Below, piece after piece: positions 61 through 63,106 of a stretch of DNA of 64,000 nucleotides. The position numbers and the translations under genes are program-made. The first letter of the stretch is position 1, and every line of letters begins with the position of its first letter. Under the pieces are notes generated by a model, which ran no database searches, had not been told where the DNA came from, and was given only the letters and a program-made list of their open reading frames with translations. Where the stretch lies: contig JAEUUP010000089.1 in assembly GCA_016787525.1 (NCBI GenBank), forward strand, positions 124,001 to 188,000. Direction: 5' to 3'. The DNA is from Saprospiraceae bacterium (GTDB taxonomy: Bacteria > Bacteroidota > Bacteroidia > Chitinophagales > Saprospiraceae).

Positions 61-1308
61 ATGAATCACAAAGTCATACGTCACTTAGTTATACTGGCAG
101 TCATTGCCCTCGCAGGTCTGATGACGGTGCAGATTGTCTGGTTCAAACAGGCTTATGACTTGCAGCAGCGTCAGTTTTCCGAAAAAGCCAACTCCGCTTT
201 GCATTTCACAGCCCAACAACTCAACCGCACGCAAGGTCAGCACCCTTTGGTCAACCAAACAGCGGCAAACACCTTCCGCGTGCAAATCAACGGTTGCCTC
301 AACGAGGACAGTTTGCCCTTGCAACTGCAAAAAGCCTTCATGCAATTCGGCACAGCGGGCGATTATGATGTGGTGGTGAACGATTGTGGCGACAAAAATC
401 GGTTGCTCAACTACAATTACAAGCTCTTGGTGGACAGCAACAAACTGTTCGCCCACAACAACCAACAAGAAGAGCCGTGCTACTACCTCAGCGTCACGTT
501 CAACAACAAACCCAAGACCTTGATGCAAGCGATGTGGTTTTGGGTGTTCGCTTCAGTCTGTTGTTTGTTGGTGCTGGTGTTTTTTGCGTACAGTTTGTAT
601 GCCTTGTTGAAAGAAAAACGCCTGTCGGAGATGAAACAAGATTTCGTCAGCAATATGACGCATGAGTTGAAAACCCCGATTGCCAATATCGCCGTCGCCA
701 GCGAGATGTTGAAGCATCCCCCCCTCAGTATGACGACCGAAAAAGTGCAACATTATGCCGATATTATCCAAAAAGAAAACAAACGATTGGAGGTTCAAGT
801 CGAACGCGTATTGACCATGGCTTTTTTGGAAGAAAAAAACCTCGACCTCCAATACGAAAAAGTGAACCTGCACCAACTTTTGGACGATGCGCTGTCTGGT
901 TTTGCCTTGCGAGTCCAGCAGCGTGGCGGGCGCATCCAATGGCATTGCAAAGCCGAACAACCGACCATCGAAGCCGACAAGTTTCATGTGCTGAATGTGA
1001 TTTACGGACTCTTGGACAATGCCGACAAGTATTCGCCCAGTCAACCCGACATTACTTTGGAGACCGAAAACACACCCAAAGGCTTGCGTCTGACGGTGGC
1101 AGACAAGGGCATCGGCATCATAAAAGAGGCACAAAAGCTGATTTTTGAGAAATTTTACCGCGTTCCAACGGGCAATGTCCACAATGTCAAAGGTTTCGGC
1201 TTGGGATTGACCTACGTAAAGATGATAGTCGAGGCACACGGTGGCAAGATAAAGGTAGAAAGTGAGCCGAATGTCGGCAGCCGCTTCTCAGTTTATTTCA
1301 ATGGTTGA
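61..1308 (+). CDS. Membrane sensor histidine kinase
   Basis: A 415-residue two-component sensor kinase. A first membrane segment lies near residues 9-29, an extracytoplasmic sensor region follows, and a second membrane segment lies near 155-183. The dimerisation/phosphoacceptor domain has the H-box MTHELKTPI with His201. The ATP-binding domain shows an N box (LLDNADKYS), a G1 box (DKGIGI) and a G2 box (GFGLGLTYVK). Such kinases phosphorylate a partner regulator, here most likely the OmpR-type protein at 1927. The sensor region matches nothing I recognise, so the stimulus is unknown. A copy of the dispersed word at 721 encodes PLS just after the H-box helix. Confidence 0.93.
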   Translation: MNHKVIRHLVILAVIALAGLMTVQIVWFKQAYDLQQRQFSEKANSALHFTAQQLNRTQGQHPLVNQTAANTFRVQINGCLNEDSLPLQLQKAFMQFGTAGDYDVVVNDCGDKNRLLNYNYKLLVDSNKLFAHNNQQEEPCYYLSVTFNNKPKTLMQAMWFWVFASVCCLLVLVFFAYSLYALLKEKRLSEMKQDFVSNMTHELKTPIANIAVASEMLKHPPLSMTTEKVQHYADIIQKENKRLEVQVERVLTMAFLEEKNLDLQYEKVNLHQLLDDALSGFALRVQQRGGRIQWHCKAEQPTIEADKFHVLNVIYGLLDNADKYSPSQPDITLETENTPKGLRLTVADKGIGIIKEAQKLIFEKFYRVPTGNVHNVKGFGLGLTYVKMIVEAHGGKIKVESEPNVGSRFSVYFNG

Positions 1309-1350
1309 ATGAATAAAGCGATTTAATAAACTTTTGTAAAAACAAGACAC

Positions 1351-1923
1351 ATGAAACTCAAATTTTGGCTCTTAACAGGCTTGTTACTCTTTTCGAGAGG
1401 CTGTGATTTTTACTCCACCAGCTTGTGGTTTTTCCAACCCGACGGTATGAAAGGCGAAATGAACCCTCTCACCTACTTTTTTGGCGTAGGTTGGAACGGT
1501 TTAATCCTCGCCAACGTCATCGTTATCAGCTTGATACTTCACGCATTTTATCAGTACAGCTATCATAAAACAAAACCCCAGTTCACAACTCGGCCCAAGG
1601 ACTATATGGACTATGGCTCGCTCTTATACTTCAATCAATCAGGTCAATTGTACAAATTAATGTATCAATGCCCTAAGAATCACTCTGTTGCTTGGCAGCA
1701 TTTTGGTTATATTGTGGTGCGTGTCGTCATCATTTTAAGCTTTTTAGCCCCTGCTCACAACCTTTTGCAATACTACAATGTCGCAACGTATGACCTTGTA
1801 CTTGATGCCATTCACCTTGTCATGCGACCATTGCTCTTGATGGCTCTATTCGGTATCGCGTTATTGGTTTATTTTCAAATAAGGATTCTAAAAAAAGAGT
1901 TCGCAAAACTACCCCCTCAGTAA
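1351..1923 (+). CDS. Hypothetical multi-pass membrane protein between kinase and regulator
   Basis: A 190-residue protein of unknown function. The N terminus is hydrophobic (MKLKFWLLTGLLLFSRG), and further membrane segments lie near residues 45-65, 118-138 and 150-178. The pattern D-Y-S-T-S with a following E-x-N-P-L near the N terminus suggests a conserved membrane family, but I cannot name it. It lies 42 bases after the kinase and 3 bases before the response regulator, so all three are probably co-transcribed and it may modulate the sensor. Its last codons and stop (CCC CCT CAG TAA) lie in a copy of the dispersed word. Confidence 0.8.
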   Translation: MKLKFWLLTGLLLFSRGCDFYSTSLWFFQPDGMKGEMNPLTYFFGVGWNGLILANVIVISLILHAFYQYSYHKTKPQFTTRPKDYMDYGSLLYFNQSGQLYKLMYQCPKNHSVAWQHFGYIVVRVVIILSFLAPAHNLLQYYNVATYDLVLDAIHLVMRPLLLMALFGIALLVYFQIRILKKEFAKLPPQ

Positions 1924-1926
1924 AAC

Positions 1927-2670
1927 ATGGCTTTATCGAACTCAAAAACCAAAATTCTCTTAGTCGAAGACGATGCCAGCATGGGCTTTCTGGTGAAAGA
2001 CTACCTCGAAATGACGGGTTTCGCCGTCACGCTCTTGACACAAGGCGACGCAGTGCTGCCTGTCTTCCTCCAAGACGCGTTTCACCTGTGCCTACTCGAT
2101 GTTATGCTGCCACAAAAAGACGGTTTTGCTGTCGCAACCGACATCAGACGACACGACACAGACATACCAATCATCTTTTTGACTGCCAAAAACATGAAAG
2201 AAGACCGCCTAAAAGGCTTTAAACTCGGTGGCGACGACTATGTGACCAAACCTTTCAGCATCGAAGAGCTGCATTTGCGCATCGAAGCCGTTTTGAAACG
2301 CACTTACGCCCACACGACCCGCGAAGAAGAGAAATTAATCATTCGTTTCGGTCATTCGTCATTCGATACCGTCAATCAATGCCTCGTAACAGCCACCGAA
2401 CGTTTCGATTTGACCTATCGAGAAGCCAAATTGCTCAAAGTATTTTGTCAAAACAAAAACAAACTACTCGAACGCGACTTTATCAACCAAACCGTATGGG
2501 CAGACGAAGGCATCATCGTTGGACGCAGCGTGGATGTATTCGTCTCCCGCTTGCGCAAACTCTTGAAAAACGACCCCTCAGTAAAAATCTCAAACGTTCA
2601 CAGCGTCGGCTACCGCTTTGAAGTCGCTGACACGGAGACAAACACCCCTTTTTCAGAAACAATCATTTAA
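1927..2670 (+). CDS. OmpR/PhoB-family response regulator
   Basis: A 247-residue DNA-binding response regulator. The receiver domain (about 8-125) has the acidic pair (VEDD), the phosphoacceptor Asp58 in LLDVMLP, a Thr in FLTAKN and the conserved Lys in VTKPFS. A winged-helix output domain fills about 140-235 (LTYREAKLLKVF, ending VHSVGYRFEV). It starts 3 bases after the preceding membrane protein, forming a kinase, membrane protein and regulator operon. A copy of the dispersed word at 2574 encodes PSV in the winged helix. The next gene starts 25 bases after its stop. Confidence 0.94.
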   Translation: MALSNSKTKILLVEDDASMGFLVKDYLEMTGFAVTLLTQGDAVLPVFLQDAFHLCLLDVMLPQKDGFAVATDIRRHDTDIPIIFLTAKNMKEDRLKGFKLGGDDYVTKPFSIEELHLRIEAVLKRTYAHTTREEEKLIIRFGHSSFDTVNQCLVTATERFDLTYREAKLLKVFCQNKNKLLERDFINQTVWADEGIIVGRSVDVFVSRLRKLLKNDPSVKISNVHSVGYRFEVADTETNTPFSETII

Positions 2671-2695: not shown

Positions 2696-3586
2696 ATGAA
2701 AAAGCTTTGCACTTTGTTCTGCTTCATGGCTCTGCCATGCCTCTTATTGGCTCAAAAACCCGTCGCACACCTTTGGGGCAGCGTCACCCGCGACTCACTC
2801 TTGCAAGAACCACACGCCACATGGTTCAAAAAGAACTACGACGACTACAAACCCAACGCCGACATCGTCGCCCAGCTCAAACGCTTGCCCACGAAAGACC
2901 TTCACATCAAGATTTTCTTCGGCTCATGGTGCGGCGACACCAAACGAGAGATGCCCCGACTGCTGAAAGTCTTAGACGACATCGGTTTTCCGAGCGCGCA
3001 CATCCATTTCATCGCCGTTTCATCGGACGATGCGGTGTACAAACAGTCGAAAAACAGAGAAGAACGCGGGTACAATGTCTTTCGAGTCGGTTGTTATGTC
3101 ATCGAAAAGAACGGTCGGGAGGTCAACCGCATCATCGAGTATCCTGCCTATTCGATGGAACGTGATTTGCTCACCATTTTCACAGGTCAAAACTATACCC
3201 CTCAGTATGCCGCCTATTCGACCATCACTCAATGGTTGAAAAACGGCGACCTACTGGACGACAACACCTCTCCCGCGAGTTTGGCGACTCAGATTAAGAC
3301 CCAAGTCAGCTCCATGAGCGACCTGAACGCCTGCGGTTACGTCCTCTTAGCCGACGGCAAACTCAAAGAAGCGGTCAAAATCTTCCGCATCAACGCCAAT
3401 CTATTCCCTGACAACGCCAACACCTACCACAGCCTCGCCGAAGGCTGGCTGACATTGGGCGATAAAGACAAAGCCCTCGCCGTTTTAGAATACGGTTTGC
3501 AAATCAACAAAAGCCCCGACATGGTCAAAGAGTATTTGGCATTGCACAAGAAGATTGTGAGTGGCGAGGCAGTTAAGTCGCATTAG
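2696..3586 (+). CDS. Secreted thioredoxin-like protein with TPR-like C terminus
   Basis: The ATG at 2696 is chosen because it gives a clean signal peptide (MKKLCTLFCFMALPCLLLAQ); the frame is open further upstream but overlaps the regulator gene. The 296-residue product has a thioredoxin-like domain (about 65-165) with FFGSWCGDTKREMPR at the active-site position. Only Cys79 is present; the second Cys of a CxxC pair is replaced, so classical disulfide exchange is doubtful. Residues about 215-290 contain helix pairs of TPR type (LKEAVKIFRINANLFPDNAN, DKALAVLEYGLQIN). It probably acts in the periplasm or outside the cell. Its place after a two-component operon may mean shared regulation. Confidence 0.85.
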   Translation: MKKLCTLFCFMALPCLLLAQKPVAHLWGSVTRDSLLQEPHATWFKKNYDDYKPNADIVAQLKRLPTKDLHIKIFFGSWCGDTKREMPRLLKVLDDIGFPSAHIHFIAVSSDDAVYKQSKNREERGYNVFRVGCYVIEKNGREVNRIIEYPAYSMERDLLTIFTGQNYTPQYAAYSTITQWLKNGDLLDDNTSPASLATQIKTQVSSMSDLNACGYVLLADGKLKEAVKIFRINANLFPDNANTYHSLAEGWLTLGDKDKALAVLEYGLQINKSPDMVKEYLALHKKIVSGEAVKSH

Positions 3587-3627: not shown

Positions 3628-4980
3628 TCATTCTTCATACTTCCGAAACACAAAATAGCCTGCTGTGCAGAACACAAAAGCCGCCACCACAGTCAACTGA
3701 ACACCATAAGGATTCTCGACGCTCTTGCCATAGACCAACAAGGACGGAAACAGCAGATTGGCGAGCGAAATACCGACTTTCATCATAAAAGCCGCCACTG
3801 CGTAGAACATACCTGCTTGATTTTTGCCCGTCAGAGCCTCATTTTTGTGGATGCAATCGGCAACAAAGGTATTCGGCAAGATGCCAAAGGTCGCCAACGG
3901 GAACGCGGCTAAAACAGTGACGAGTATGAAGCGCACAATGCCTTCAAGAGGTAACAGTAAAATGGCGAAAATGACCAAAAATGTGAGAAATGCAACCAAT
4001 GTAATGGTCTTTTTGGAAAACCCCGCTTGCAACTTGCCCATCAATGGATAAAACAAAAAGCTGGTGAAAAAGCTACCAATACCAAAATAAGTCGCATAAG
4101 ACTTATCCAAACCCAACAACAAGGTGACATAAAAGATGATACCCGCTTGCACGAACGTCAAAGCCAGCCAATAGAGCAGATAGGACGTGGCAAAATAGCG
4201 GAAAGGTCGGTTTTGGAAAACCGATTGCAGTGATTTGATAAAGTTTTCATGCGATTCACTCTGTAAAGCATACTTTTTTTCGTCGAGAAAGAAAACAGGA
4301 ACGAGCAAAAACACCACCGATAGCAGTGCAAACAACCCCACCGTCTTCTGAAACGCCCATACTGAGGGGTCCCCTTTCGATTCAAAAAAGCCTTGCAAGG
4401 CGGGCGTGGTGTTGCCAATCAAAAAACCCAAAGCCCAAGTGATGGAAATGATGGTCGAGATACGCAGACGGTCACTCCCCACATGTCCCAATTCAGAAAT
4501 CAGAGCCGCATACGGTATCATATACATCGCCAAACTGACATAGAACACAAAGACCACCGCAGTCAACCACAGCGCATTGGTCACAGACACCCCCTCAGTC
4601 ATCGGATGAAACATGGCGTAGGATGTAGCAGCCAAAGGCAAAGCCGCAATCGCCATAAACGTTTTGCGCTTACCAAAGGATGTAGTCATTTTGTCCGACC
4701 AATTCGCCACAAAAGGGTCAATAAACGCATCGAACAAGCGTCCGCTGAAGCTGATAAGCCCCAACAAGGTCAACCCCAAAAATGATAAGGTCGGTATATA
4801 ACTTGGGAATAAGGTTCGAGAAGCGGTATCTTCGGGTGGCATATAAAAATAACTCAACAACGAGCCAACGCCATAGGAAGCCAAAGACCAGCCCAATTGT
4901 CCACAGGCGTAAATCCAAATAACAGAAAGAGGAGGGCGCATAGGTATGTTTACAGTCGTTTGTTCGATTGTCTTGTTCAT
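3628..4980 (-). CDS. MFS transporter, glycoside-pentoside-hexuronide:cation symporter type
   Basis: A 450-residue membrane protein with about twelve hydrophobic segments. The N-terminal half has the MFS_2/GPH pattern: SGRLFDAFIDPFVANWSDK, then TSFGKRKTFM in the cytoplasmic loop. Relatives move sugars or other small molecules with Na+ or H+; the substrate cannot be read here. It converges on the thioredoxin-like gene and diverges from fabH at 5190. A copy of the dispersed word at 4360 encodes DPSVW, and a near-copy at 4591 encodes TEG. Confidence 0.9.
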   Translation of the reverse strand: MNKTIEQTTVNIPMRPPLSVIWIYACGQLGWSLASYGVGSLLSYFYMPPEDTASRTLFPSYIPTLSFLGLTLLGLISFSGRLFDAFIDPFVANWSDKMTTSFGKRKTFMAIAALPLAATSYAMFHPMTEGVSVTNALWLTAVVFVFYVSLAMYMIPYAALISELGHVGSDRLRISTIISITWALGFLIGNTTPALQGFFESKGDPSVWAFQKTVGLFALLSVVFLLVPVFFLDEKKYALQSESHENFIKSLQSVFQNRPFRYFATSYLLYWLALTFVQAGIIFYVTLLLGLDKSYATYFGIGSFFTSFLFYPLMGKLQAGFSKKTITLVAFLTFLVIFAILLLPLEGIVRFILVTVLAAFPLATFGILPNTFVADCIHKNEALTGKNQAGMFYAVAAFMMKVGISLANLLFPSLLVYGKSVENPYGVQLTVVAAFVFCTAGYFVFRKYEE

Positions 4981-5083: not shown

Positions 5084-5189
5084 GTCAAATATCCTTTTCA
5101 TTTATCGAAACTTAGCTAATTTTCGCCAATAAGTTTATCCCCCCCTCAGTAAACTGACTTATTTTGACTAATCATTTAAACCTAACAGG

Positions 5190-6414: not shown

Positions 6415-8046
6415 ATGTATTCTTTCAAAACCGTTCTCAGAACGTCACTGTTTTTGCTTGTTGGCTTACAAACAAACATGGCTCAAAGCGTTGACCCGCT
6501 TAATTATATTCCCAAAAAGTCGCAAAATATCTTTGTTCTCAACACCCCCTCAGTAGTTGGGAAGATGGACGTGGCAGCATTGAAGGAATTAGACTTCGTC
6601 AAAGACTTTACAGCCAATCCGAGTGGCAAAAAAGCCTTATCATTGATGGTCAACCCTGCTGAATCAGGCATCAATTTCTTGAAACCCATTACAATTGCCA
6701 TTTCAGACTTAGAAGACACAAAGTTTCAGACAATAAATATCATCATTCCGTTGGCAAATGCGGCAAAATTTAAGTCTGTGATGTCTGAAAACAAGTCCAA
6801 TATCACCCAAAAAGGCAACTTGACCGTCATTGAAAATGACTCGACCAACTTTTTTTGGAATGATAAGATGCTCGTCGTGGCTTCTTTGAAAAAGAAAAAA
6901 GACCCGATGGCGGCTTTTGCGCAACAAGACACAACTGAGGAGCAACCTGCACCGCCGAAAATAGACCCCTCAGTATATTTTGACAACAACGAGACAAACG
7001 ACAAAGCCGATGCGCTCCGCGAATTGATGCGCACGCCTCACGACATCTACATCTACCAAACCACCGATGGCACAGGCAAAAGCATGAAAGGCATGATGGC
7101 AAGCATGATGTTCGGCTTGAAACCCAATGACCTCGATGGCAATGTGACAACAGGCTGGGCAGACTTTGAAAAAGGGCGTATCTACGGCGAAACGTCGCAA
7201 AAAATGAACGAAGCCATGACTCAGAAGTTTGCTTCGCTCGGCAGACCCAAACCTTCGGTGAATTGGAATCAATACGTCAACACCAACAGCAAGCCTGTGA
7301 TGCTCATGTCGTTTTCGCTCAACCCAATGGGTTTGAAACAGATGCTCTCAGAAAACGAAATGCTGAAAATGGGTGCAGAAAAAGCCATGACTAAGTCGGG
7401 AGGTAAGTTTTCGATGGATAATGTTTTAGCAGCATTCGGAGGCGATGTGTTTGCAACATTTGCAATGGACGATAAAGACGCAAGTTTTTTGATTGGCTTA
7501 TCTGTTTCGGACAAAAAGTCAGTTGAAAAATTGATGACAGATGAGTTTAAGTTCAAAAAAATGAGCAAAAACCTCTACTACTCAGAGCCAAAAGCCGAAC
7601 CTGCCAAAACAGAACAGTCTGACGACGAGCCTGCACCGACAACTCTCCCCAAAGCAAAGACCAAAACCTTCTTTTTGTTCAAAGACGATGTGGTTTTGAT
7701 TGGCAAAGAGAAACAAATCATGGCTTTGAAAGAAGCTCCTAAGCTTACCAACATGGTGGAAACCAGTGAATGGCAAAAATCTTTGAAAAACAAACCTGTC
7801 AATCTCTTATTTGACTTTAGTGCTATCGCAAGTTCATTAGGGCCATTGGCACAAGGCAAACTCGATGATATTCCATTCGAATCAATGAGTATGACCATGG
7901 CTAACAAAGTCTCGACTTTTGAACTCAAGATGAACGACAAGGAACACAATGCCTTGACTTCTTTCTTCCAATTCGTGGATAAAACCATGAAAGAGAAAAA
8001 AGAGAAAGCAAAAATGTTGGAAAACATAGAAGAGAAAAAGGATTAA
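6415..8046 (+). CDS. Secreted hypothetical protein (DUF4836-like)
   Basis: The ATG at 6415 is chosen over the longer frame because it gives a signal peptide (MYSFKTVLRTSLFLLVGLQTNMAQ). The 543-residue mature protein begins DPLNYIPKKSQNIFVLNTPSVV, which recalls the DUF4836 family of Bacteroidota; I offer that as a possible match only. It is rich in Met, Lys and Asp, with no catalytic motif visible, and ends in a charged helix (MKEKKEKAKMLENIEEKKD). A TACTTTTG element at 6373-6380 could be its -7 box. Copies of the dispersed word at 6546 and 6966 both encode PSV. Function unknown. Confidence 0.8.
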   Translation: MYSFKTVLRTSLFLLVGLQTNMAQSVDPLNYIPKKSQNIFVLNTPSVVGKMDVAALKELDFVKDFTANPSGKKALSLMVNPAESGINFLKPITIAISDLEDTKFQTINIIIPLANAAKFKSVMSENKSNITQKGNLTVIENDSTNFFWNDKMLVVASLKKKKDPMAAFAQQDTTEEQPAPPKIDPSVYFDNNETNDKADALRELMRTPHDIYIYQTTDGTGKSMKGMMASMMFGLKPNDLDGNVTTGWADFEKGRIYGETSQKMNEAMTQKFASLGRPKPSVNWNQYVNTNSKPVMLMSFSLNPMGLKQMLSENEMLKMGAEKAMTKSGGKFSMDNVLAAFGGDVFATFAMDDKDASFLIGLSVSDKKSVEKLMTDEFKFKKMSKNLYYSEPKAEPAKTEQSDDEPAPTTLPKAKTKTFFLFKDDVVLIGKEKQIMALKEAPKLTNMVETSEWQKSLKNKPVNLLFDFSAIASSLGPLAQGKLDDIPFESMSMTMANKVSTFELKMNDKEHNALTSFFQFVDKTMKEKKEKAKMLENIEEKKD

Positions 8047-8064: not shown

Positions 8065-8121
8065 GAGAAACAAGATATGGACAGCATTTATACTGAGGGG
8101 TGCTGTCCTATTTTGTTTCTC
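8065..8121. terminator. Bidirectional terminator hairpin with the dispersed word in its loop
   Basis: The inner arms GGACAGCA (8079-8086) and TGCTGTCC (8101-8108) are extended outward by GAGAAACAAGATA pairing with TATTTTGTTTCTC, with one bulged base and one wobble pair. It lies between convergent genes and touches the stop of the deformylase gene. The 14-base loop is almost entirely the TACTGAGGGG word. Confidence 0.8.
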
Positions 8122-8717: not shown

Positions 8718-9878
8718 ATGCCCAAACACATCTTTTTGTTAATCTGTTGGATACCCCTCAGTATTTCTCCTGTTTTTAGTCAAAGTGCTTGCGATGAATT
8801 GAGAGATTTAATTCTAAGCAATACGTCTCCTCAATCTGTTGGTTTACGTCAAACAACCTTATCTATTTGGGGTAAAGACACCATACGCACACAAAAAGAG
8901 ATAGACCCGCGTGGCTTAGAACATGAGTATCAATGGCGCGATGGGTACGTTCAAGAAAAAATTGTTACAGAATTAAGAACCTACCATTTGTCAGACCGTA
9001 AACAGCATTATTGGGGTGCGCCTTACAATGGTTGGTCTTATACAGAAATTGATACAACACAAACGAAAGGGCGATTTATTCACAAACGAGATTCCATACA
9101 AATTAAAGCTTTAATAATTTATATTTATAAACAACACACGAATTGTCAAAAGAGAGGTACAGAAATCATAAATGGTCAAAACTGCACTATTTATACCTAT
9201 GAACACCATGCTAACCCCGATACTTTAAAAAAATACGCTACGACAAAAGGTTATGAAAATCATATTCTGATTCCTGTTACTTACCATAAGACATGGATAG
9301 GCAATGATGGACGTATTTATCAAACGGAAGAATGGCATGATAAAGGGGAAAGATATACGGCATCATTTAGTCGAACAACGATTGAATATGATGTACCTGT
9401 TACGATAAATGTCCCTCAAAATACTTATAATTTTTTGGAATTGCTCAAAAAAGAGCAACGTCGTGATACCATTATGAAACATTTCCTTGTTTACAGCCGT
9501 CGCCCATTGATGAAAAGTCAAACTGGCGCGCCTGTTTTGAAAAAAGTGGACACAAAAGCACAATTTCAAAAGAGTGAAGCCGATTTTAAAAGGTGCATTG
9601 AGCAGCAAGTTTCAGCGCATCGCATTGCTGACCGCTTTTACCAAAAACCAACGACCGTCAATCTCAGTTTTACAGTCGAGCGAGATGGTACAGTATCGCA
9701 TATCGCCGTAGATAAGCCGAAAAAAAGACGTCAGTATGTCGAAGCCGAAGCGATTAGAATCATAGAAACGACTTCTGGTCAGTGGAAAGCAGCTGTCAAA
9801 AATGGGCAAAACGCCTGCTCGGTGCAGAAGGTTGCGATTGATTTTCCATTGTTCGGTACATACTCACAGAGAGATTAA
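8718..9878 (+). CDS. Secreted protein with TonB-like C-terminal domain
   Basis: A 386-residue protein with signal peptide MPKHIFLLICWIPLSISPVFSQ. Residues about 300-383 resemble the TonB C-terminal fold (VNLSFTVERDGTVSHIAV, then YVEAEAIRIIETTSGQWKAA). In Bacteroidota this fold is often attached to secreted or periplasmic proteins that are not true TonB, and no N-terminal membrane anchor with Pro-rich linker is seen here. The N-terminal 280 residues are rich in Tyr, Thr and charged residues and match nothing I recognise. A copy of the dispersed word lies within the signal peptide (IPLSIS). Confidence 0.75.
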   Translation: MPKHIFLLICWIPLSISPVFSQSACDELRDLILSNTSPQSVGLRQTTLSIWGKDTIRTQKEIDPRGLEHEYQWRDGYVQEKIVTELRTYHLSDRKQHYWGAPYNGWSYTEIDTTQTKGRFIHKRDSIQIKALIIYIYKQHTNCQKRGTEIINGQNCTIYTYEHHANPDTLKKYATTKGYENHILIPVTYHKTWIGNDGRIYQTEEWHDKGERYTASFSRTTIEYDVPVTINVPQNTYNFLELLKKEQRRDTIMKHFLVYSRRPLMKSQTGAPVLKKVDTKAQFQKSEADFKRCIEQQVSAHRIADRFYQKPTTVNLSFTVERDGTVSHIAVDKPKKRRQYVEAEAIRIIETTSGQWKAAVKNGQNACSVQKVAIDFPLFGTYSQRD

Positions 9879-18124: not shown

Positions 18125-18145
18125 AAACAGTTTTTTACTGAGGGG

Positions 18146-27075: not shown

Positions 27076-27219
27076 AAGTTTTGTTCATCTGCGAGGCGTA
27101 TGTTAACCCCTCAGTATTTGATTTAAAAGAATGATTATTTGAAAAGACAAAATAAGTAAATTATTTGATAATCAACTATTTACGAGAATTTTTACTGATT
27201 CGTTTTTAATTACGTTATA

Positions 27220-29951: not shown

Positions 29952-30038
29952 GGACTACAAATAATTGTTATTCATATTTTTATGCGCAAATATAAATGAA
30001 ATCTGGGAATCGTGAAAAGCAAAATGTCCCCCTCAGTA

Positions 30039-40465: not shown

Positions 40466-40484
40466 GCTAAATACTGAGGGGGAT

Positions 40485-43576: not shown

Positions 43577-43631
43577 TTTCTGTTTTTAAAATATACCCCT
43601 CAGTATTTCTCGTGAAGCGGCGTTTTTTCAA

Positions 43632-45373: not shown

Positions 45374-45410
45374 AAGCTCCCGAATGACTTTTGTACTGAG
45401 GGGGCTTTTT
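45374..45410 (+). terminator. rpmF terminator whose 3' arm is a dispersed word
   Basis: Arm AAGCTCCC (45374-45381) pairs with GGGGGCTT (45400-45407, one wobble), followed by T. The G tract of the word at 45394 forms the 3' arm. Confidence 0.7.
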
Positions 45411-47476: not shown

Positions 47477-47583
47477 TAGACAGTCGTTGTTTTTACCCCC
47501 TCAGTAAATGTTCGCCCGAACTCAGTATTTTTGTTATAAATACCTGATTATCAGACTTTTTTAGCATATTTTGATATAAAAAG

Positions 47584-47632: not shown

Positions 47633-47773
47633 ATACCTATTGGTCTGTTCGCGTTTTTCTTTCCCTGTTTTTGCTTAGTTTAATAAAAAACTTTTACCTT
47701 TCAAGGGCTTTGACGGAAGCCATAAGCCCCCCTCAGTATAATGCAAAATTTTTCTAAGAAAAACAACCAATCA

Positions 47774-54264: not shown

Positions 54265-55614
54265 ATGAATGTATTGAAAACAACACGTACAACTTGCGTT
54301 TTGGCTCTACTCCTATTGGTTTGGAGTTGCCAAACAGCCGAAAAATCAAACCCAAACTATCAGAAGGAGGCTGCCAATCCTGAGTTTCTGCACCAATCAC
54401 TTGTGAGTTTGACAAAGGTTATCAAGCACGACCTTTTTGCGCCTATGATTGCAGCACGTATTTATACGTATGCGCAAATCGCTGCTTATGAGGCACTGAA
54501 CGCGCAGACCCCTCAGTATCAGAGTCTCGCAGGGCAAATCAAAGACTTGCCTGAAATGCCCAAAGCAGAAGCGGGCAAAGACGTTTGTCTGCCTTTGGCA
54601 GCTGTGAAAGCTTATTTCAAAGTGGGCAAACAGCTGACATTCTCGGGTGACAGCATGGATGTGGAATGGGGGAAAATGATGACAGAATTTAAAAAAGTAG
54701 GTATTCCGAAAGAGGTATTCGACCGTTCGATTGCCTTAGGTGACACCATCGGCGGCACTATTTTGAAATGGTCGGCAGGCGACAACTATGCACCCACCCG
54801 TTCGATGCCCAAATACACCATCAAACAGCAAAATCCAGCGACTTGGCGACCAACCATGCCAGATTATGCGGATGCACTTGAGCCAAACTGGAATAAGATT
54901 CGCCCCTTACTGATGGATTCAGCAGCACAATTTAAGCCTACACGCCCAACCACTTACGATTCATCGAAAACGAGTAAGTTCTACAAAGAGGCTTTTGAAG
55001 TTTATAAAACGGTGGCTGACTCAACGCCTGAACGTATTGCCACGGCATGGTATTGGGACGACAACCCGATTGCAACGCTCAATGCAGGGCATTTTAATAT
55101 CATCAGAAAAAAAGTGACACCAACGGGCCATTGGATGTGGATTACGATGTACGCATGTCGTCAGCAAAGCAAGGATATATTTGAAACCTCAGAAGCCTAT
55201 GTCAAAGTCGCCATTGGTTTATTCGATGCTTTCATCAGTTGTTGGGACGAAAAATACCGTTCAGAGGTGGTGCGCCCTGAGACATATATCGGGCAATTCA
55301 TCGCACCGCAGTGGACCCCCATTATTGTAACACCACCTTTTCCTGAATATACAAGTGGTCACTCATGCGTTTCAGGGGCAAGTTCGACGATTTTAACGGA
55401 TGTTTTCAAGACCAATACAGCATTTACAGATAGCACAGAGGTGCAATTTGGCATTCCTCCTCGTTCGTTCAAATCCTTTGACGAAGCAGCCCAACAAGCA
55501 GCCATCAGTCGGATGTATGCAGGTATTCACTATCGTCCTGCTTGCGACAATGGTATCACACAAGGTCAAGCTGTTGGCAAACAAGTGTTGGCTAAGGTGA
55601 AAACCAAGAAGTAA
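54265..55614 (+). CDS. PAP2-superfamily lipoprotein (vanadium haloperoxidase-like phosphatase)
   Basis: A 449-residue lipoprotein. ATG 54265 gives the signal MNVLKTTRTTCVLALLLLVWSC with a lipobox. The three PAP2/haloperoxidase motifs are present in order: K-x6-R-P in KYRSEVVRP, PEYTSGHSCVSGASS (P-x-x-SGH type), and SRMYAGIHYRPACDNG. Relatives are acid phosphatases or vanadium-dependent haloperoxidases, and the sequence does not decide between them. It probably sits in the outer membrane or periplasm. The word at 54509 encodes TPQY; a degenerate one lies upstream at 54108. Confidence 0.88.
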   Translation: MNVLKTTRTTCVLALLLLVWSCQTAEKSNPNYQKEAANPEFLHQSLVSLTKVIKHDLFAPMIAARIYTYAQIAAYEALNAQTPQYQSLAGQIKDLPEMPKAEAGKDVCLPLAAVKAYFKVGKQLTFSGDSMDVEWGKMMTEFKKVGIPKEVFDRSIALGDTIGGTILKWSAGDNYAPTRSMPKYTIKQQNPATWRPTMPDYADALEPNWNKIRPLLMDSAAQFKPTRPTTYDSSKTSKFYKEAFEVYKTVADSTPERIATAWYWDDNPIATLNAGHFNIIRKKVTPTGHWMWITMYACRQQSKDIFETSEAYVKVAIGLFDAFISCWDEKYRSEVVRPETYIGQFIAPQWTPIIVTPPFPEYTSGHSCVSGASSTILTDVFKTNTAFTDSTEVQFGIPPRSFKSFDEAAQQAAISRMYAGIHYRPACDNGITQGQAVGKQVLAKVKTKK

Positions 55615-55653: not shown

Positions 55654-55689
55654 GAAAAAGCGACCCCTCAGTAAGGAGTCGCTTTTTTC
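55654..55689. terminator. Bidirectional terminator built around a dispersed word
   Basis: Arms GAAAAAGCGAC (55654-55664) and GTCGCTTTTTT (from 55678) continue inward as CCT/AGG, leaving CAGTA as the loop. The word at 55664 thus forms the 5' part of the stem and the loop. It lies between convergent genes. Confidence 0.85.
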
Positions 55690-55720: not shown

Positions 55721-58354
55721 CTACTGTTTTTGCCATTTTTGCGTACTGACCACTTTGCCATTCGCTTTGATAACAACCATGTAGAGACCTGTGTTGAGGT
55801 TCGATAAATTGTCCAAAGTTTGAATATAGCTGCCCATATCTTGGTTGCCACCATCCAAACGACTGACAACTTGACCTTGGAGATTCATCAATTCGACTTT
55901 TACATTGGCTTCTTTCGATAGCGTGTAAGCGACTTGAACAGATTCAGAGCCAGGGTTCGGATACACACCAAATTCGCTGATATATTGCGGCATATCTGTA
56001 CCTTGTGCTGCAAATTCATCATCGCCAAAGCAGTTTGCACCGAATCGGAATTGTTTGGTCACCCAATCGCTCGCCTGCCCGTTGCTACAAATAGATCTCA
56101 CTTGAACAATATAGTAACGACATTGTACGAGTTCTCTCATTACAAAAGCATTGGTCGAAACCCTAACGGGTGTTGCATTGAAGACAGATGAATCGGCTGC
56201 CGCTGCGTATCGCACTTCATAGGTTAAGCCTGTCGCAGGCATAATCCACGTTAATTTGGCAGAATCGGCAAGGTAGTTAGACACAACAAGGTCACGCGGA
56301 ACGCTTGCGCATGGTGTAGGGCAGCCTTTTGTCGTAAATGTTGCGCTTGCACTTTCTATAATGCTTGTAGCAGAGCAATTGGTCAACACACGCCATTGAT
56401 AAGTTGTGCATTTAAGTAAACCTGTCACACGCACAGGTAAAGCACTGGCATTGATTGAATTATACTGAATAGATGTCCAGTTAGCAGTACCTGCCACACG
56501 ATACTGAATAGTATAAGTCGGCGCGCCAGTCAGACTGAATTTCAAAAAGACAGCTGTATCATTCACAATTTCAGAAGCTAATGCAGTAGAAGCTACACAT
56601 GGTCTTGGACAGCCTGTTGTTGTGAATGTGAAATTCGTATAACCCGAAATACCTGTTGAACAAACTGAAGCAATGCGTATCATATACGTTTTGCATGTTT
56701 GCAAATTGCTTAATGTAATGGTATTAGCCGTGGTAGAGTCACGCTTCCATGCAGCTAAGCTATCCGCCAAAAGTTTGTATTCAACATAATATTTAACAGC
56801 ACCCATATTCGCCCATTTCACAACAACTTTGTTAGAGTCTGTGGCAAAACTTATTTCTCTCGGTGTGCCACAAGGTTCTGGGCAACCACGTGTTTCAATA
56901 GTTGCTGTGACGATTTCGCTTGTTGACGATGAAGAACAGACCGTTTTAAGCTGAATTTTATACTTTTTGCAACGCTCTAAACCTGTCAAAGTGTAGACAG
57001 TACCTGTCACATTCGCTTCTCTAATGACAGTTCCTGCCTCATTTGTTACAATCAATCGGAAATTATTGACACTACTTGCTGTAACCCATGAGACGAGTGC
57101 AACCGTATCAGCCACATACACTTTCAAATTTTTAGGTGCTAAACAAACAGCCGCACAACCACCTGTTTTGAAACGAATAGGAGAACTCCACACACTGCTT
57201 GAAGTCGTTGTACAGTTTGTTTTGACGCGGAAAGAGTAATAACTACAAGCCGTCAAACCTGTGAACGCATACTGATTGCCACGTACGCCTTCAACGGTGC
57301 GCCAAGTGCTGTCGCGAGGACCGAGAATTTGGAGCGTATAAGTAGCACCAGCCGTAGTATCCCATTTGACCACTGCTCCTGTTTCTGTTACGGTATAACT
57401 CAAACGGCTTGGTGCGTTGCAACGGACACACCCCTCAGTATTGACAGATATTGTTGCACTCCATTCGCTGTAAACAGGAGCTGTCGATGTGCCACAAATG
57501 CTACGTACTTTGAATTTGTAGGTTTTACAAGTAGCAACGTTGCCGAGTGTCAAAAAACTTGATGTGCTGGTGACTGTACGTGCCGCAGAGTCGCCAATGG
57601 AGTACATGATTTCATAAGCGGTTGCGCCTGTTGCGACCCATTTCACTAAAATCCCACCATTGACATTCACCGCAACTACTTCGCGTGGCGTGCTGCATGG
57701 TGCAACGCAACCACTTGTCTTAAACTTGATGCTTTCTGAGTAAGCACTTGTTTCGGTATTAGAACAAACCGTTGCAACGCGGAATTGGTATTCCGTACAA
57801 GGTTGTAAACCGTTGATTAATAACGAGTTGGTAGAAGATGTTTGCTCGCGCCATGTTGAATCGAGGCGTGATTTCCATTGGATTTTGTACGTTCTGCCAG
57901 TACCCATATTCGACCAATTGAGCGAAGCCGCACTGTCGCGTGTTGCAGCGAACAAAGAAGATGGCGCGCGACAAGGTTCGACGCAACCTACAGTTTTGAA
58001 TTCAGCTGTTCTCCAATCACTCACTTCTGTGGCAGAGCAATTGGCACGAAGCCGAACGACATAACATTTGCAAGCCGTCAAATTCCCCAACGTATAGATT
58101 CCTGTATCACGTAGAGTTGTTCCTGCTGTGATGTTGTTAACAGTCGTCCAAGCACTGTCGCTACATGCACGATATTGCAAAGTGTAGTTGAGTGGCGGCG
58201 TTGCAGCCGTGGATATCCAAATCACCTTGCCAATTGTTGCTTCGGTAGAATAAGCCCCCACATAAGGTGCTGTGCATACAAGTTCAGGCGCATCTTGTGC
58301 GATGGCAAAGAAACTTGAAATAAAAAAACTGAGAAAAAGTATGACTTTTTTCAT
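55721..58354 (-). CDS. Secreted fibronectin type III repeat protein with T9SS type A sorting domain
   Basis: An 877-residue surface protein. The start at 58354 gives the signal peptide MKKVILFLSFFISSFFAIAQ; the frame is open for 54 more codons upstream. About eight fibronectin type III units of roughly 90 residues follow, each with a conserved W, L-x-x-C-x-x-Y and C pattern and ending in F-x-T-x-GC then PC. The last 80 residues (YPNPGSESVQVAYTL, LNTGLYMVVIKANGKVVSTQK) are a type IX sorting domain. The many Cys pairs suggest disulfide-stabilised domains and adhesion. The word at 57431 encodes TEGC. Confidence 0.9.
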   Translation of the reverse strand: MKKVILFLSFFISSFFAIAQDAPELVCTAPYVGAYSTEATIGKVIWISTAATPPLNYTLQYRACSDSAWTTVNNITAGTTLRDTGIYTLGNLTACKCYVVRLRANCSATEVSDWRTAEFKTVGCVEPCRAPSSLFAATRDSAASLNWSNMGTGRTYKIQWKSRLDSTWREQTSSTNSLLINGLQPCTEYQFRVATVCSNTETSAYSESIKFKTSGCVAPCSTPREVVAVNVNGGILVKWVATGATAYEIMYSIGDSAARTVTSTSSFLTLGNVATCKTYKFKVRSICGTSTAPVYSEWSATISVNTEGCVRCNAPSRLSYTVTETGAVVKWDTTAGATYTLQILGPRDSTWRTVEGVRGNQYAFTGLTACSYYSFRVKTNCTTTSSSVWSSPIRFKTGGCAAVCLAPKNLKVYVADTVALVSWVTASSVNNFRLIVTNEAGTVIREANVTGTVYTLTGLERCKKYKIQLKTVCSSSSTSEIVTATIETRGCPEPCGTPREISFATDSNKVVVKWANMGAVKYYVEYKLLADSLAAWKRDSTTANTITLSNLQTCKTYMIRIASVCSTGISGYTNFTFTTTGCPRPCVASTALASEIVNDTAVFLKFSLTGAPTYTIQYRVAGTANWTSIQYNSINASALPVRVTGLLKCTTYQWRVLTNCSATSIIESASATFTTKGCPTPCASVPRDLVVSNYLADSAKLTWIMPATGLTYEVRYAAAADSSVFNATPVRVSTNAFVMRELVQCRYYIVQVRSICSNGQASDWVTKQFRFGANCFGDDEFAAQGTDMPQYISEFGVYPNPGSESVQVAYTLSKEANVKVELMNLQGQVVSRLDGGNQDMGSYIQTLDNLSNLNTGLYMVVIKANGKVVSTQKWQKQ

Positions 58355-58507
58355 GTCAGATTTTGATTGTGATAAATTAAGTACGGTTATTTCGATGTCA
58401 AATATTTTGATTTTGGCATACCCAAAGAGTTTAAAAAGAACAAGATTACTGAGGGGGTATGTTTTTGTCAAGCGTGTAATATACCAACCACTGTCCTTTC
58501 TGAGTAG

Positions 58508-60134: not shown

Positions 60135-61087
60135 AAAAACGGATATTTCTCCAACGCATTTTTCACCTTCTCATCCAACTGCTTTTTGAATTTTTGATAC
60201 CCCTCAGTATCAACCCCGTGCAAAGGACGATGCGCCCGCATCTGATTGATTTTTTCTACTTCTTCAATAATACTCTTCGTTTTTTTATCGAAAAAAGTAT
60301 CTGAAAACTGCTGCCAAATGTAGTCAATCGCCACAGCGTTGGGGTGAATCATATCGCGCTCGTAGAAACGGTAGTCGCGCAAATCGTCCATTACAAGTTC
60401 GTAAGCAGGAAAATAATAAATAGGTGAAAAACGCTGACAAAGAGCTTCGCAAGCCAAAAGTAGAACCGCCTTTGACCGATTGTTTTCAACCAAACCATCT
60501 CTTGTATGACGGATAGGACTGACAGTCAAAATGATGCGACAATCAGGGTTTTGTAAGAAAATTTTCTCAAAAACAGGTGTGAATGCCTCTACAATCTCTG
60601 CCACAGAAAGTCGTTTAGGCGTAAAATACTGAGGGGGTATCTTGTGACAATTGGCGACAACAGCATCGGTTTCTTTCCAAACAAAAGTATTGGCTGTACC
60701 CAAAGTAAGGAACAAGCGATTTGTTTTTTGGGCAAAAACACGTGCTTTTTCAATGTTTTCATTGATGTTGTGCAAAACCAGTGTCTGGTTTTCACCTGAA
60801 AAGTGACCATGATGTTGTAGCGAATGCCACAAACCGTTCTGTTGAACGAGGTCTTTTTCTGTAAAAAAAACAGGTGTTTCGGAAGAAAAAATGGTCGCTA
60901 ATTGTTGCGCCATACTGAGGGGGTTGTAAACGATGCCAAAAGGATTCTGTAAAAAAGGCAATTGCCTTGCACTGAGCATTGACCCCATGTTTTCGATAAA
61001 ACAAGAGCCAATGCCCAGCATAAAGCATTGATAGTCAATTGAAAAAGGAGCAGACCGCGGCTTGAGTTCTGTCCGAAATGTTTGCAT
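60101..61087 (-). CDS. GSCFA-domain protein
   Basis: A 328-residue GSCFA-family protein, an SGNH-hydrolase-like fold of unclear function. It shows MLGIGSCFIENMGSML, FLQNPFGIVYNPLSM, LTLGTANTFVWK, ILTVSPIRHTRDGLVENNRSKA and RDMIHPNAVAIDYIW, the last holding the Asp/His-like HPN motif. Its last ten residues (SYELIDFTNL) are encoded by a copy of the AATTCGT repeat. It is 6 bases from the preceding gene, so co-transcribed. Words at 60200, 60627 and 60913. Confidence 0.88.
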   Translation of the reverse strand: MQTFRTELKPRSAPFSIDYQCFMLGIGSCFIENMGSMLSARQLPFLQNPFGIVYNPLSMAQQLATIFSSETPVFFTEKDLVQQNGLWHSLQHHGHFSGENQTLVLHNINENIEKARVFAQKTNRLFLTLGTANTFVWKETDAVVANCHKIPPQYFTPKRLSVAEIVEAFTPVFEKIFLQNPDCRIILTVSPIRHTRDGLVENNRSKAVLLLACEALCQRFSPIYYFPAYELVMDDLRDYRFYERDMIHPNAVAIDYIWQQFSDTFFDKKTKSIIEEVEKINQMRAHRPLHGVDTEGYQKFKKQLDEKVKNALEKYPFLSYELIDFTNL

Positions 61088-61093
61088 AATCTT

Positions 61094-63025
61094 TTATTTT
61101 TCAACCCGTTCAATCAACCGTACAGAGATGCGCAGAAAATCCATTTCTGTGATGATACCCACCAACTCGCCCGACTTGTTGACCACAGGCAAACAACCAA
61201 TGCGATTATCGCGCATGATTTTCAAGGCTTCTATGAGTGTGGCATCGGGAGTGATGGTTTTCGGGTTTTCAATCATAATTTCTGCGACAGTGCTTTGTTT
61301 CACATTGTCCAAATTATTATTTTGTGTCAATGCACGCAACAATAAACGCGATGTCACCAAACCCACCAGTTGACCTTTGGAATCCTCAATAGGCATAAAA
61401 CGGATGTTGCGCCAGTCCATCAACTGTGCTACAAACTCGATGATGTCTTCTTTTTGAGCTGTAAAAAGGTCTGTTTGCATAAACTCTTCCACTTTCAATT
61501 TAGAAGGCATATAGTGTTCGAGCGCACTCGGCTCGGGTAGCGTCCAAGTATGTACTGGTTTTTCAGCCCATTGATTTTGTGCGATGGCAGCCGTCATAGT
61601 TGTTACAGCTTCGTCGGTCGTCACCTCTTTGGTGAGTTTCGTGAAGGCACGCAATTGCCAGCGTGCGCCTGTCATGTGTGCCTTCGCACGCTCTTCGATG
61701 ATGTCCATGTAGCGCGAAATATCGGCTTCGTCAACCCCCCTCAGTGTCAGACCTTCGCGAGCAATAGGCAACAACTCATTGAGAATCAAATCCTGTGGAC
61801 TCACTTTTCGGTCATTGAACCAAGTGTATTTAGTATCGAAACCAAACTTAGCGGCTTTGTCAAAATTATCTCTAATGTCTTCAAAACCAATGTGTTTGGT
61901 GACATCACCATAGTTTTTGGCATAACCTATCATCAAACCGAGCCAGAACGCTGCATTCGCTGTCGAATCCACCACCGATGGTCCCGCAGGCAACACACGG
62001 CACTCAATGCGCAAATGAGGTTTGCCATTGGGTGAAATACCATAACATGGACGATTCCAACGATACACCGTTGAGTTGAAAATTTGCAAAGCACGCAGTT
62101 TAGGTGTTTTGCCTTTAGCAATCATTTCCAGTGAATCTTCTTCAATCACATCACCCAACAAAACCCTAAAACGTGAAATATCGTCGCGATGAATTTCCAA
62201 AATGCTTTCGTGCAACCAGTCGTTGCCAAAATTGACACGTGGGCGGCGTTCGCGCAGATGCTCATGCGAGGTTCGGGTATCGAGGGCTTGTTGGAACAAA
62301 GCAATCCGCGTCTCGTGCCACAATCGCCGTCCAAAAACCAGTGGCGAGTTGGCTGAAATGGAGATGATGGGCGCAAGCAGCATTTGAGCAATATTGTACA
62401 TTTTGACATATTCCTTCGGCGAAACCTGCAAATGCACCTGAAAACTTGTGTTACAAGCCTCCAAAAGTGGTGAATCGTGGCGAATATGCAGCTCATCAAT
62501 GCCATCGAGTCGCAATTCAAAATGTTCATCGCCCCGCAACGAATGCTCTTTGATGCTTTCCATCAGAGCCAAATAGCGAGGTTTGGGTGTTAGGTTCGAC
62601 AAATCGAGGTCAGATTTGCGCAATGTTGGCAAAATACCTGTCAACACAACCTCTGCGCCCATCTCACGTACAACATCCCGAATTTTCTGTAACCCCTCAG
62701 TATTTTCGCGTTCCATTTCACGCAAACAATTGCCTTTAAATTCAAGCGGCGTTAAATTGGTTTCGAGGTTAAATTGTGCCAGTTCGGTGGTGACCCAGTC
62801 CCAACCTTTCATTTTTTCCAAAGCAGCCATGTTGATGCAGGCGGGTTTGAAAGTGTCTTTGTTGACAAGGCACATCTCTTGTTCTGCCCCGATGCGTGTG
62901 ATGTCGGACTCAAACCAGTCATTTTTGAGCATATAATCGAATGCGTCAACGTCACGAAGCAAATGGCGCACAAAATTTTGCATTTGCTTTTGGTCTCTGA
63001 CCACTTTTACTTTGGCTTCTCCCAT
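61094..63025 (-). CDS. Glutamate-cysteine-ligase-like protein fused to two CBS domains
   Basis: A 643-residue fusion. Residues about 25-480 resemble the GCS2 type of carboxylate-amine ligase: ITRIGAEQEMCLVN, LTPLEFKGNCLREME, FQVHLQVSPKEYVKMYNIAQ, and IECRVLPAGPSVVDSTANAAFWLGL. Residues about 515-640 hold two CBS units (FMPIEDSKGQLVGLVTSRLLL, IGCLPVVNKSGELVGIITEMD), which commonly bind adenine nucleotides. It would join glutamate to an amine or Cys under energy control. The exact product is unknown. Word at 62693; near-copy at 61737. Confidence 0.87.
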   Translation of the reverse strand: MGEAKVKVVRDQKQMQNFVRHLLRDVDAFDYMLKNDWFESDITRIGAEQEMCLVNKDTFKPACINMAALEKMKGWDWVTTELAQFNLETNLTPLEFKGNCLREMERENTEGLQKIRDVVREMGAEVVLTGILPTLRKSDLDLSNLTPKPRYLALMESIKEHSLRGDEHFELRLDGIDELHIRHDSPLLEACNTSFQVHLQVSPKEYVKMYNIAQMLLAPIISISANSPLVFGRRLWHETRIALFQQALDTRTSHEHLRERRPRVNFGNDWLHESILEIHRDDISRFRVLLGDVIEEDSLEMIAKGKTPKLRALQIFNSTVYRWNRPCYGISPNGKPHLRIECRVLPAGPSVVDSTANAAFWLGLMIGYAKNYGDVTKHIGFEDIRDNFDKAAKFGFDTKYTWFNDRKVSPQDLILNELLPIAREGLTLRGVDEADISRYMDIIEERAKAHMTGARWQLRAFTKLTKEVTTDEAVTTMTAAIAQNQWAEKPVHTWTLPEPSALEHYMPSKLKVEEFMQTDLFTAQKEDIIEFVAQLMDWRNIRFMPIEDSKGQLVGLVTSRLLLRALTQNNNLDNVKQSTVAEIMIENPKTITPDATLIEALKIMRDNRIGCLPVVNKSGELVGIITEMDFLRISVRLIERVEK

Positions 63026-63106
63026 AATTTGATTCTTTTTGGTTTGTTTTATGACCTAAAATTTTGTTTTGAATATTCTAATACCCCCTCAGTATTTCGA
63101 TTGTTT

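Follow-up and report, generated by a model that had tools for sequence, protein, structure and literature searches.

A ten-base word at about one copy per kilobase, with a helically phased flank, as a candidate DNA uptake sequence in a Saprospiraceae bacterium

The window analyzed here is a 64,000-nucleotide stretch of the Saprospiraceae bacterium assembly GCA_016787525.1 (contig JAEUUP010000089.1, positions 124,001 to 188,000), and the element in question is the ten-base word CCCCTCAGTA, which has 64 exact matches in this window, the first starting at 721 and the last ending at 63,094 (Table 1), compared with a mean of 0.03 copies in 100 dinucleotide shuffles. The strand split of 38 forward to 26 reverse copies does not deviate significantly from parity (binomial p = 0.17). 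The copies are spaced by 990 bases on average, and the widest start-to-start gap is 3,131 bases. The recount is identical to the number and strand split given in a preliminary description of this DNA, and the huge excess over chance and the absence of gaps above 3.1 kb that were claimed there hold as well.

Table 1 Exact copies of CCCCTCAGTA in the 64,000-nucleotide window
Feature	Position	Strand	Note
CCCCTCAGTA copy	721..730	+	exact match
CCCCTCAGTA copy	1913..1922	+	exact match
CCCCTCAGTA copy	2574..2583	+	exact match
CCCCTCAGTA copy	3198..3207	+	exact match
CCCCTCAGTA copy	4360..4369	-	exact match
CCCCTCAGTA copy	5142..5151	+	exact match
CCCCTCAGTA copy	6546..6555	+	exact match
CCCCTCAGTA copy	6966..6975	+	exact match
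CCCCTCAGTA copy	8091..8100	-	exact match
CCCCTCAGTA copy	8754..8763	+	exact match
CCCCTCAGTA copy	10244..10253	+	within HSP70 gene 10137-12047
CCCCTCAGTA copy	11975..11984	-	within HSP70 gene 10137-12047
CCCCTCAGTA copy	12675..12684	+	exact match
CCCCTCAGTA copy	14066..14075	+	exact match
CCCCTCAGTA copy	17197..17206	-	exact match
CCCCTCAGTA copy	18136..18145	-	exact match
CCCCTCAGTA copy	18266..18275	+	exact match
CCCCTCAGTA copy	19508..19517	+	exact match
CCCCTCAGTA copy	19821..19830	-	exact match
CCCCTCAGTA copy	20278..20287	+	exact match
CCCCTCAGTA copy	21825..21834	-	exact match
CCCCTCAGTA copy	23179..23188	-	exact match
CCCCTCAGTA copy	23684..23693	+	exact match
CCCCTCAGTA copy	26114..26123	+	exact match
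CCCCTCAGTA copy	26371..26380	+	exact match
CCCCTCAGTA copy	27107..27116	+	exact match
CCCCTCAGTA copy	28079..28088	+	exact match
CCCCTCAGTA copy	29098..29107	+	exact match
CCCCTCAGTA copy	30029..30038	+	exact match
CCCCTCAGTA copy	30831..30840	+	exact match
CCCCTCAGTA copy	31867..31876	-	exact match
CCCCTCAGTA copy	33266..33275	+	exact match
CCCCTCAGTA copy	34975..34984	+	exact match
CCCCTCAGTA copy	35175..35184	+	exact match
CCCCTCAGTA copy	35367..35376	-	exact match
CCCCTCAGTA copy	35940..35949	-	exact match
CCCCTCAGTA copy	36257..36266	+	exact match
CCCCTCAGTA copy	36848..36857	-	exact match
CCCCTCAGTA copy	38524..38533	-	exact match
CCCCTCAGTA copy	39001..39010	-	exact match
CCCCTCAGTA copy	40000..40009	-	exact match
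CCCCTCAGTA copy	40472..40481	-	exact match
CCCCTCAGTA copy	42125..42134	-	exact match
CCCCTCAGTA copy	42467..42476	+	exact match
CCCCTCAGTA copy	43596..43605	+	exact match
CCCCTCAGTA copy	43940..43949	+	exact match
CCCCTCAGTA copy	44959..44968	+	exact match
CCCCTCAGTA copy	45394..45403	-	exact match
CCCCTCAGTA copy	47497..47506	+	exact match
CCCCTCAGTA copy	47729..47738	+	exact match
CCCCTCAGTA copy	48250..48259	-	exact match
CCCCTCAGTA copy	49601..49610	-	exact match
CCCCTCAGTA copy	51444..51453	-	exact match
CCCCTCAGTA copy	51570..51579	-	exact match
CCCCTCAGTA copy	52379..52388	-	within aspS 51869-53632
CCCCTCAGTA copy	54509..54518	+	exact match
CCCCTCAGTA copy	55664..55673	+	exact match
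CCCCTCAGTA copy	57431..57440	+	exact match
CCCCTCAGTA copy	58447..58456	-	exact match
CCCCTCAGTA copy	60200..60209	+	exact match
CCCCTCAGTA copy	60627..60636	-	exact match
CCCCTCAGTA copy	60913..60922	-	exact match
CCCCTCAGTA copy	62693..62702	+	exact match
CCCCTCAGTA copy	63085..63094	+	exact match

The source assembly (referred to as G000; 7,267,541 bases in 169 contigs, 98% complete) contains 6,920 copies of CCCCTCAGTA, equivalent to 0.95 per kb, with 3,463 on the forward and 3,457 on the reverse strand. The same word read backwards, used as a control, occurs three times in the whole assembly, and the genome-wide count that had been proposed earlier thus confirmed the excess. In the following, strand and spacing counts are based on 809 kb of this assembly, and motif and genic counts on 736 kb. 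Strands were balanced within the three largest contigs (81:81, 74:59 and 76:80; contigs of up to 161 kb), within-contig strand heterogeneity was not significant (p = 0.06 for 20 stretches with at least eight copies; one of 21 stretches at p = 0.02), and adjacent copies shared the strand in 410 of 787 pairs. An apparent long forward run on contig C6 was rejected, because the entire contig has a ratio of 81:81. A switch of orientation, for which a check had also been proposed, did not appear as strand bias within these contigs, which are unplaced relative to the origin. The intervals between copies (mean 988 bases, coefficient of variation (CV) 0.70) were more even than random, with five intervals above 3.2 kb versus 31 expected and nine below 100 bases versus 76 expected, and the index of dispersion was 0.48 in 70 ten-kb bins (lower-tail p = 9e-5). 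The word-poorest stretch (C110:8182-19285) is not obviously a mobile element and lies mostly inside a single open reading frame (ORF) of 4,340 codons (L116:5718-18740).

In agreement with the preliminary description, copies were located both in genes and in intergenic DNA (533 genic, 201 intergenic, one at an edge). Their density was ~0.93 per kb in called genes versus 1.24 per kb between genes (p = 8e-4), values that are approximate because our home-made gene caller, which called 78% of the DNA coding, misses some genes. Between convergent genes the density reached 1.85 per kb (35 copies), and only five of the 787 intervals were shorter than 60 bases, so that of the enrichment at terminators claimed earlier a mild form remains. 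Each of these five intervals separates an inverted pair; a T-rich stretch follows most of the pairs, and the two that were folded both gave strong hairpins. In 20 shuffles of synonymous codons, the codon-preserving control suggested earlier, the mean number of genic copies was 5.7 (maximum 13) versus the 533 observed, and protein sequences and codon usage therefore do not explain the excess. The tripeptides encoded by CCCCTCAGTA are themselves over-abundant (222 occurrences of TEG versus 37 of its reverse, GET).

The consensus of the word is sharp. In 731 copies it is preceded by C (59%) or A (38%) and followed by T (59%) or A (23%), and the 735 perfect copies compare with 108 single-mismatch versions, where 14.7 would be expected by chance. 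Almost all of these mismatches (99 of 108) fall on the four C positions or the last A, whereas mismatches within TCAGT numbered nine versus 6.3 expected. Downstream of the word the A/T content oscillates, with peaks near +10, +20, +31, +42 and +52 and troughs near +15, +26, +36 and +47 (power 65.9 versus a maximum of 2.9 in 500 null draws; 806 copies). Decaying-cosine fits gave a period of 10.54 +/- 0.06 bp and an amplitude of 0.30 downstream, and a period of 10.66 +/- 0.08 bp and an amplitude of 0.05 upstream. The phased tracts are strongest over about four helical turns 3' of the word, and a weak upstream signal extends to about -70. The 3' rhythm was reached by none of 300 null draws for genic copies in either orientation (266 and 247 copies), and likewise by none of 300 for 113 copies far from called genes, indicating that the rhythm belongs to the DNA itself rather than to the reading frame. 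Most of the rhythm is accounted for by AA/TT steps, and the 3' flank is presumably curved. A control based on the autocorrelation of the genome underpredicts the rhythm to ~+47 and explains much of the signal beyond; since it accounts for part of the far-flank signal, we claim direct selection for about four downstream turns only.

Among the genomes examined, the word was restricted to this species, the relatives having it at about the level of chance. None of 149 other genomes of the family and none of 297 other genomes of the order, two overlapping samples, contained more than 14 copies, and the only other species of the same genus that was sampled (G046) has three copies in 4.7 Mb. Comparison of stretches of G000 with stretches of G046 yielded 40 protein matches (36 without duplicates; median identity 42%), from which 18 word sites, several of them in one gene, were taken in matches of at least 45% identity. 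At 15 of these 18 sites the alignment is free of gaps inside the word (a small sample from one relative), for example RSRDPLSIVAE versus RSRDLFSIVAE, which indicates that CCCCTCAGTA arose by substitution inside existing genes. The word-encoded residues are identical in both genomes at three sites, and the substitutions often changed residues. For the Haemophilus uptake signal sequence (USS), gaps were reported in 24% of alignments, counted over longer segments (PMC1626085). Within 299 kb, G046 itself is enriched in the palindrome TTGATWATCAA, which looks like a regulator site or hairpin and not like an uptake word, and in longer dispersed repeats; TGATAATCAA occupies 47 one-kb bins there versus three copies expected. 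Likewise, TTGATAATCAA occurs 30 times in 736 kb of G000, the two counted spellings being reverse complements.

The word is also present in viral DNA. A scan of IMG/VR for an inverted CCCCTCAGTA pair yielded 14 records, two of which carry the word at host-like density (25 copies in 26.5 kb and 28 in 36.8 kb). The 25-copy record represents a tailed phage, as its genes for a terminase, a portal and a neck protein show; a weak antirepressor match was found as well. In the 28-copy record one protein was examined and gave a weak ligase match. By eye, 18 distinct copies from both records show a similar A/T rhythm. Temperate phages of Pasteurellaceae accumulate USS (PMC6776037), and word-bearing phages would also be predicted by an intracellular role of CCCCTCAGTA. 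The other twelve records have one inverted pair each and are otherwise free of the word; these pairs are probably ordinary hairpins.

The relatives were screened for words of their own using 80 named loci and 37 genomes (36 from the family plus G046), some of which possibly coincide; loci below 10 kb offer little power, and two loci had four-copy words. A convincing word on both strands was found in two of the 117. Six further loci were set aside owing to repeats, mostly one-stranded occurrence or few or weak copies, and another two because their candidates lie on one strand. One of the two words, GTTTTGGCG, occurs 899 times (449:450) in a 3.3 Mb metagenome-assembled genome of Saprospiraceae (G150), where the reversed control counts 47, and in 33 other genomes searched it remained within ~2.3-fold of the control or lower. 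Among 247 family genomes, its extended form GTTTTGGCGNAAGC has 780 copies in G150 and 808 in G374, followed by a tail of genomes with 10-47 copies versus 0-2 for the reversed controls. Besides G150 and G374, six Saprospiraceae have 23-47 copies with reversed controls of zero and are possibly relics or early stages. This second Saprospiraceae word is as sharp as CCCCTCAGTA: GTTTTGGCGAAAGC has 58 copies in 356 kb, and at ten of its 14 positions no single-mismatch version occurs. An IMG/VR scan with GTTTTGGCGAAAGCT returned 63 stretches, in each of which the DNA examined contained at most two copies of GTTTTGGCGNAAGC.

The other word, GGTACGTT, reaches 4,379 copies (control 158) in Fibrella forsythiae (G151) and 4,103, 3,265, 2,121, 1,192 and 1,131 copies in five other members of its family, in a sample of 121 genomes the remainder of which grade down to background. 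Written as YRGGTACGTT, it thus forms a gradient across this family, with counts per genome between background and 4,379, and would permit a phylogenetic test of the rise and decay of such words. Both words exceed codon shuffles (177 versus 26 for GGTACGTT; 79 versus 7 for GTTTTGGCG). Periodicity downstream of the Fibrella word was not significant (reached by 145 of 500 null draws); the upstream value was reached by six of 500. For the second Saprospiraceae word an early hint (31 sites, one of 500 draws) was gone with 95 sites, for which 120 of 1000 null draws reached the downstream value. The Fibrella word is randomly spaced (CV 1.10) and has many near-copies, and may therefore be a weaker or a different thing.

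The receptor of the Neisseria DNA uptake sequence (DUS) is the pilin ComP. In the carriers G000, G150 and G151, a search for the type IV pilus ATPase (PilB/PilT-type; PF00437) gave no match over the cut-off, other pilus families not having been searched; among the 34 genomes of this search, seven were over the cut-off and five of these strongly, with G374 and the other Fibrella-family carriers outside the set. The pilus genes for which the preliminary description proposed a search were thus not recovered by this family in the three carriers, and the surface DNA-binding protein it proposed to look for led to no receptor, whereas comEC and dprA, which it also named, are both present, one copy each, in G000. 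Downstream of comEC, on the same strand, lie genes for a 402-residue ComEA-like helix-hairpin-helix protein, an MltA-like transglycosylase and a TonB-dependent outer-membrane protein. The last is a candidate receptor only; it was seen near comEC in G000 alone among seven loci compared, G000 included, too few to argue from. The comEC neighbourhood was rejected as a discriminator, since the position of the comEA-like gene does not track the word (see below) and the MltA-like gene adjoins comEC in G046 too.

Transformation in the Bacteroidota genus Riemerella essentially depends on ComEC, DprA, ComF, RecA and a helix-hairpin-helix protein, as well as on a predicted outer-membrane protein with a carboxypeptidase regulatory domain, a DUF5689 protein and a DUF1343 protein (PMC8459023). 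The essential genes given for this transposon screen include no pilus homologue (PMC8459023), and transformation that uses no known pilus gene therefore has a precedent in the phylum. A Riemerella strain mutated in tonB shows reduced transformation although its iron uptake is normal (PMC8383284), and R. columbina has a preference for its own DNA, the k-mers reported for it being A/T-rich only (PMC7965970). The Riemerella DUF5689 protein was considered as a receptor and dropped, as G000 has two weak matches and no clear counterpart of the RS04920-RS04915 pair. PF18942 does not track the words either, with zero matches in the six word-richest Fibrella-family genomes searched. In two G000 proteins with tails of the type IX secretion system (T9SS), DUF5689 is joined to a PLD-like nuclease (L195:244-2490) or to a sub-threshold exonuclease/endonuclease/phosphatase match (L194:7414-10428), which suggests secreted nucleases. 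T9SS sorting domains are present as well. In a search with the aspartyl-tRNA synthetase of the window, the first named hits were records of Saprospiraceae with 70-73% identity. A long minus-strand gene run at 18146-36988 of the window, in which five proteins examined are of sugar-nucleotide or glycosyltransferase type, is likely a surface polysaccharide cluster; it contains 22 copies of CCCCTCAGTA, a normal density.

Taken together, CCCCTCAGTA is probably a DNA uptake sequence, that is, a self-recognition tag for DNA import. This reading, already put forward in the preliminary description, is supported by the genome-wide excess, the codon control, the strand balance and the presence of comEC and dprA, and the regular spacing, sharp consensus, substitution origin, 3' tracts and virus copies fit it as well. 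A predicted surface receptor would bind CCCCTCAGTA, bending of the duplex into the outer membrane would be eased by the presumably curved 3' flank, and a bias towards word-bearing DNA in uptake and recombination would have spread the word by point mutation, acting as a drive. From the genome data we infer DNA import by the cells with a preference for CCCCTCAGTA, a curved flank and a non-pilus receptor. Given that the relatives examined do not share CCCCTCAGTA and that no pilus ATPase was matched, an uptake bias acting via a different receptor is most likely, and the word would probably need a receptor other than the type IV pilus. Somewhat more tentatively, pilus-free, sequence-specific uptake may be a wider trait of Bacteroidota, in which unrelated words at the level of a species or a clade (CCCCTCAGTA, GTTTTGGCGNAAGC and YRGGTACGTT) arose at least three times and are each recognised by a fast-changing outer-membrane receptor coupled to ComEC, a possibility that we rate at slightly below even chances.

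Several observations weigh against an uptake role. Genes with atypical codon usage are not sparser in the word (0.94, 1.05, 0.96 and 0.80 per kb from the lowest to the highest quartile), whereas a lower density of USS was reported for accessory genes (PMC6776037). The flank rhythm outreaches the two tracts of the USS and resembles DNA-wrapping sites, and neither of the other Bacteroidota words has a clear long flank periodicity. No relative examined shares CCCCTCAGTA, unlike the dialects of Pasteurellaceae. Since comEC was found in 27 of 27 and dprA in nine of nine genomes, word-free relatives included, and ten word-free Saprospiraceae also have a comEA-like gene next to comEC, these genes do not separate word carriers from other genomes; next to comEC in the word carriers G150 and G151, a comEA-like gene was not found. 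Finally, as PF00437 gave no match in three carriers, the known receptor class appears to be missing.

The main rival explanation is an intracellular wrapping site, bound by gyrase or by a species-specific nucleoid protein at about one site per kb, which would organise or supercoil the chromosome. We consider this unlikely, even though it would account for A/T tracts phased at ~10.5-10.7 bp on both sides of the word and weakly to about -70, for the even spacing, for the copies in two virus records and for the undiminished density in atypical-codon genes. Gyrase is a conserved enzyme, yet the congeneric G046 has just three copies in 4.7 Mb, and the flank amplitude differs between ~0.30 downstream and 0.05 upstream. 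The motif of Escherichia coli gyrase also has periodic flanks, of 10.75 bp over 130 bp, but it is symmetric, long and degenerate (PMC6379681), whereas the core of CCCCTCAGTA hardly varies across its ten bases; for binding sites of regulatory proteins, a looser consensus is typical (PMC1626085).

A dense, non-palindromic word would also be expected of a sequence that orients recombination or segregation in the manner of Chi or of the FtsK-orienting polar sequences (KOPS). Chi and KOPS are strand-biased, whereas the strands are balanced in contigs as long as 161 kb (81:81 on C6; the contigs are unplaced relative to the origin), and phased duplex flanks are unexpected for a site that is read as single-stranded DNA, which makes this role highly improbable. 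It is less improbable, although still quite unlikely, that CCCCTCAGTA spread as a repeat that was copied or inserted (a transposon relic, or an element of the homing or gene-conversion kind) or serves as a self-mark in methylation or defence, similar to HIP1. Young copied elements typically have a strong consensus (PMC1626085), but the copies have about twelve bases in common plus a compositional rhythm, and at 15 of 18 aligned sites the word replaces other sequence without a gap. With regard to a self-mark, HIP1 is palindromic and CCCCTCAGTA is not.

In the literature examined, uptake sequences are described only for two proteobacterial families, both with uptake through type IV pili, and titles and the opening lines of abstracts on Bacteroidota, Saprospiraceae, Spirosoma and Riemerella (few subscription papers, no bioRxiv) named no such word. 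If CCCCTCAGTA is an uptake sequence in a genome that lacks the pilus ATPase, self-tagging of DNA evolves repeatedly, here in another phylum, and the tag is separable from the pilus. It would provide a handle on the outer-membrane step of transformation in Bacteroidota and would account for the maintenance of ~6,900 sites, of which, judged from the 736 kb examined, roughly 70% lie in called genes. With Fibrella forsythiae, a named strain with another such word, the question becomes testable now.

Among known systems, HIP1 of cyanobacteria is a short word of very high genome density, a property shared by CCCCTCAGTA, but it is palindromic and common to several genera, unlike CCCCTCAGTA. The E. 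coli gyrase motif shares the alternation of A/T and G/C with a period near 10.5-10.8 bp (PMC6379681) and differs from CCCCTCAGTA with its asymmetric flank amplitude and nearly invariant core. Riemerella (Flavobacteriaceae) resembles G000 as a member of the Bacteroidota with ComEC, DprA and a helix-hairpin-helix protein, no pilus ATPase being matched in G000; unlike in G000, the k-mer count given for Riemerella contains only A/T-rich words (PMC7965970 Table 3). The DUS of Neisseriaceae likewise has a ten-base core, a density of ~1 per kb and no orientation bias (PMC1626085), forms dialects between species (PMC3630211) and is read in Neisseria by ComP (PMC3868556), which was not found here, PF00437 being the pilus family searched; it is described without a flanking motif (PMC1626085), unlike CCCCTCAGTA with its phased flank. 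As general features of USS and DUS, a density of ~1 per kb, no orientation bias, a somewhat regular distribution, some close inverted pairs, a preference for non-coding DNA and an unusually strong consensus have been listed, and for Pasteurellaceae a pair of A/T segments on the 3' side, spaced roughly by the helical repeat (PMC1626085). Each of these was found for CCCCTCAGTA, as was an origin by substitution, whereas two further features, sharing with relatives and a type IV pilus ATPase, were not. Compared with the USS, to whose core it is unrelated, CCCCTCAGTA has about four phased tracts where the USS has two, an occurrence in one species among those examined, no PF00437 match and an uptake role that is predicted. 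With the nine-base USS core of Haemophilus influenzae and other Pasteurellaceae it shares the density of ~1 per kb, unbiased orientation, regular spacing, a sharp consensus, an origin by substitution and 3' A/T tracts (PMC1626085), and its copies in two virus records may parallel the USS of temperate phages (PMC6776037).

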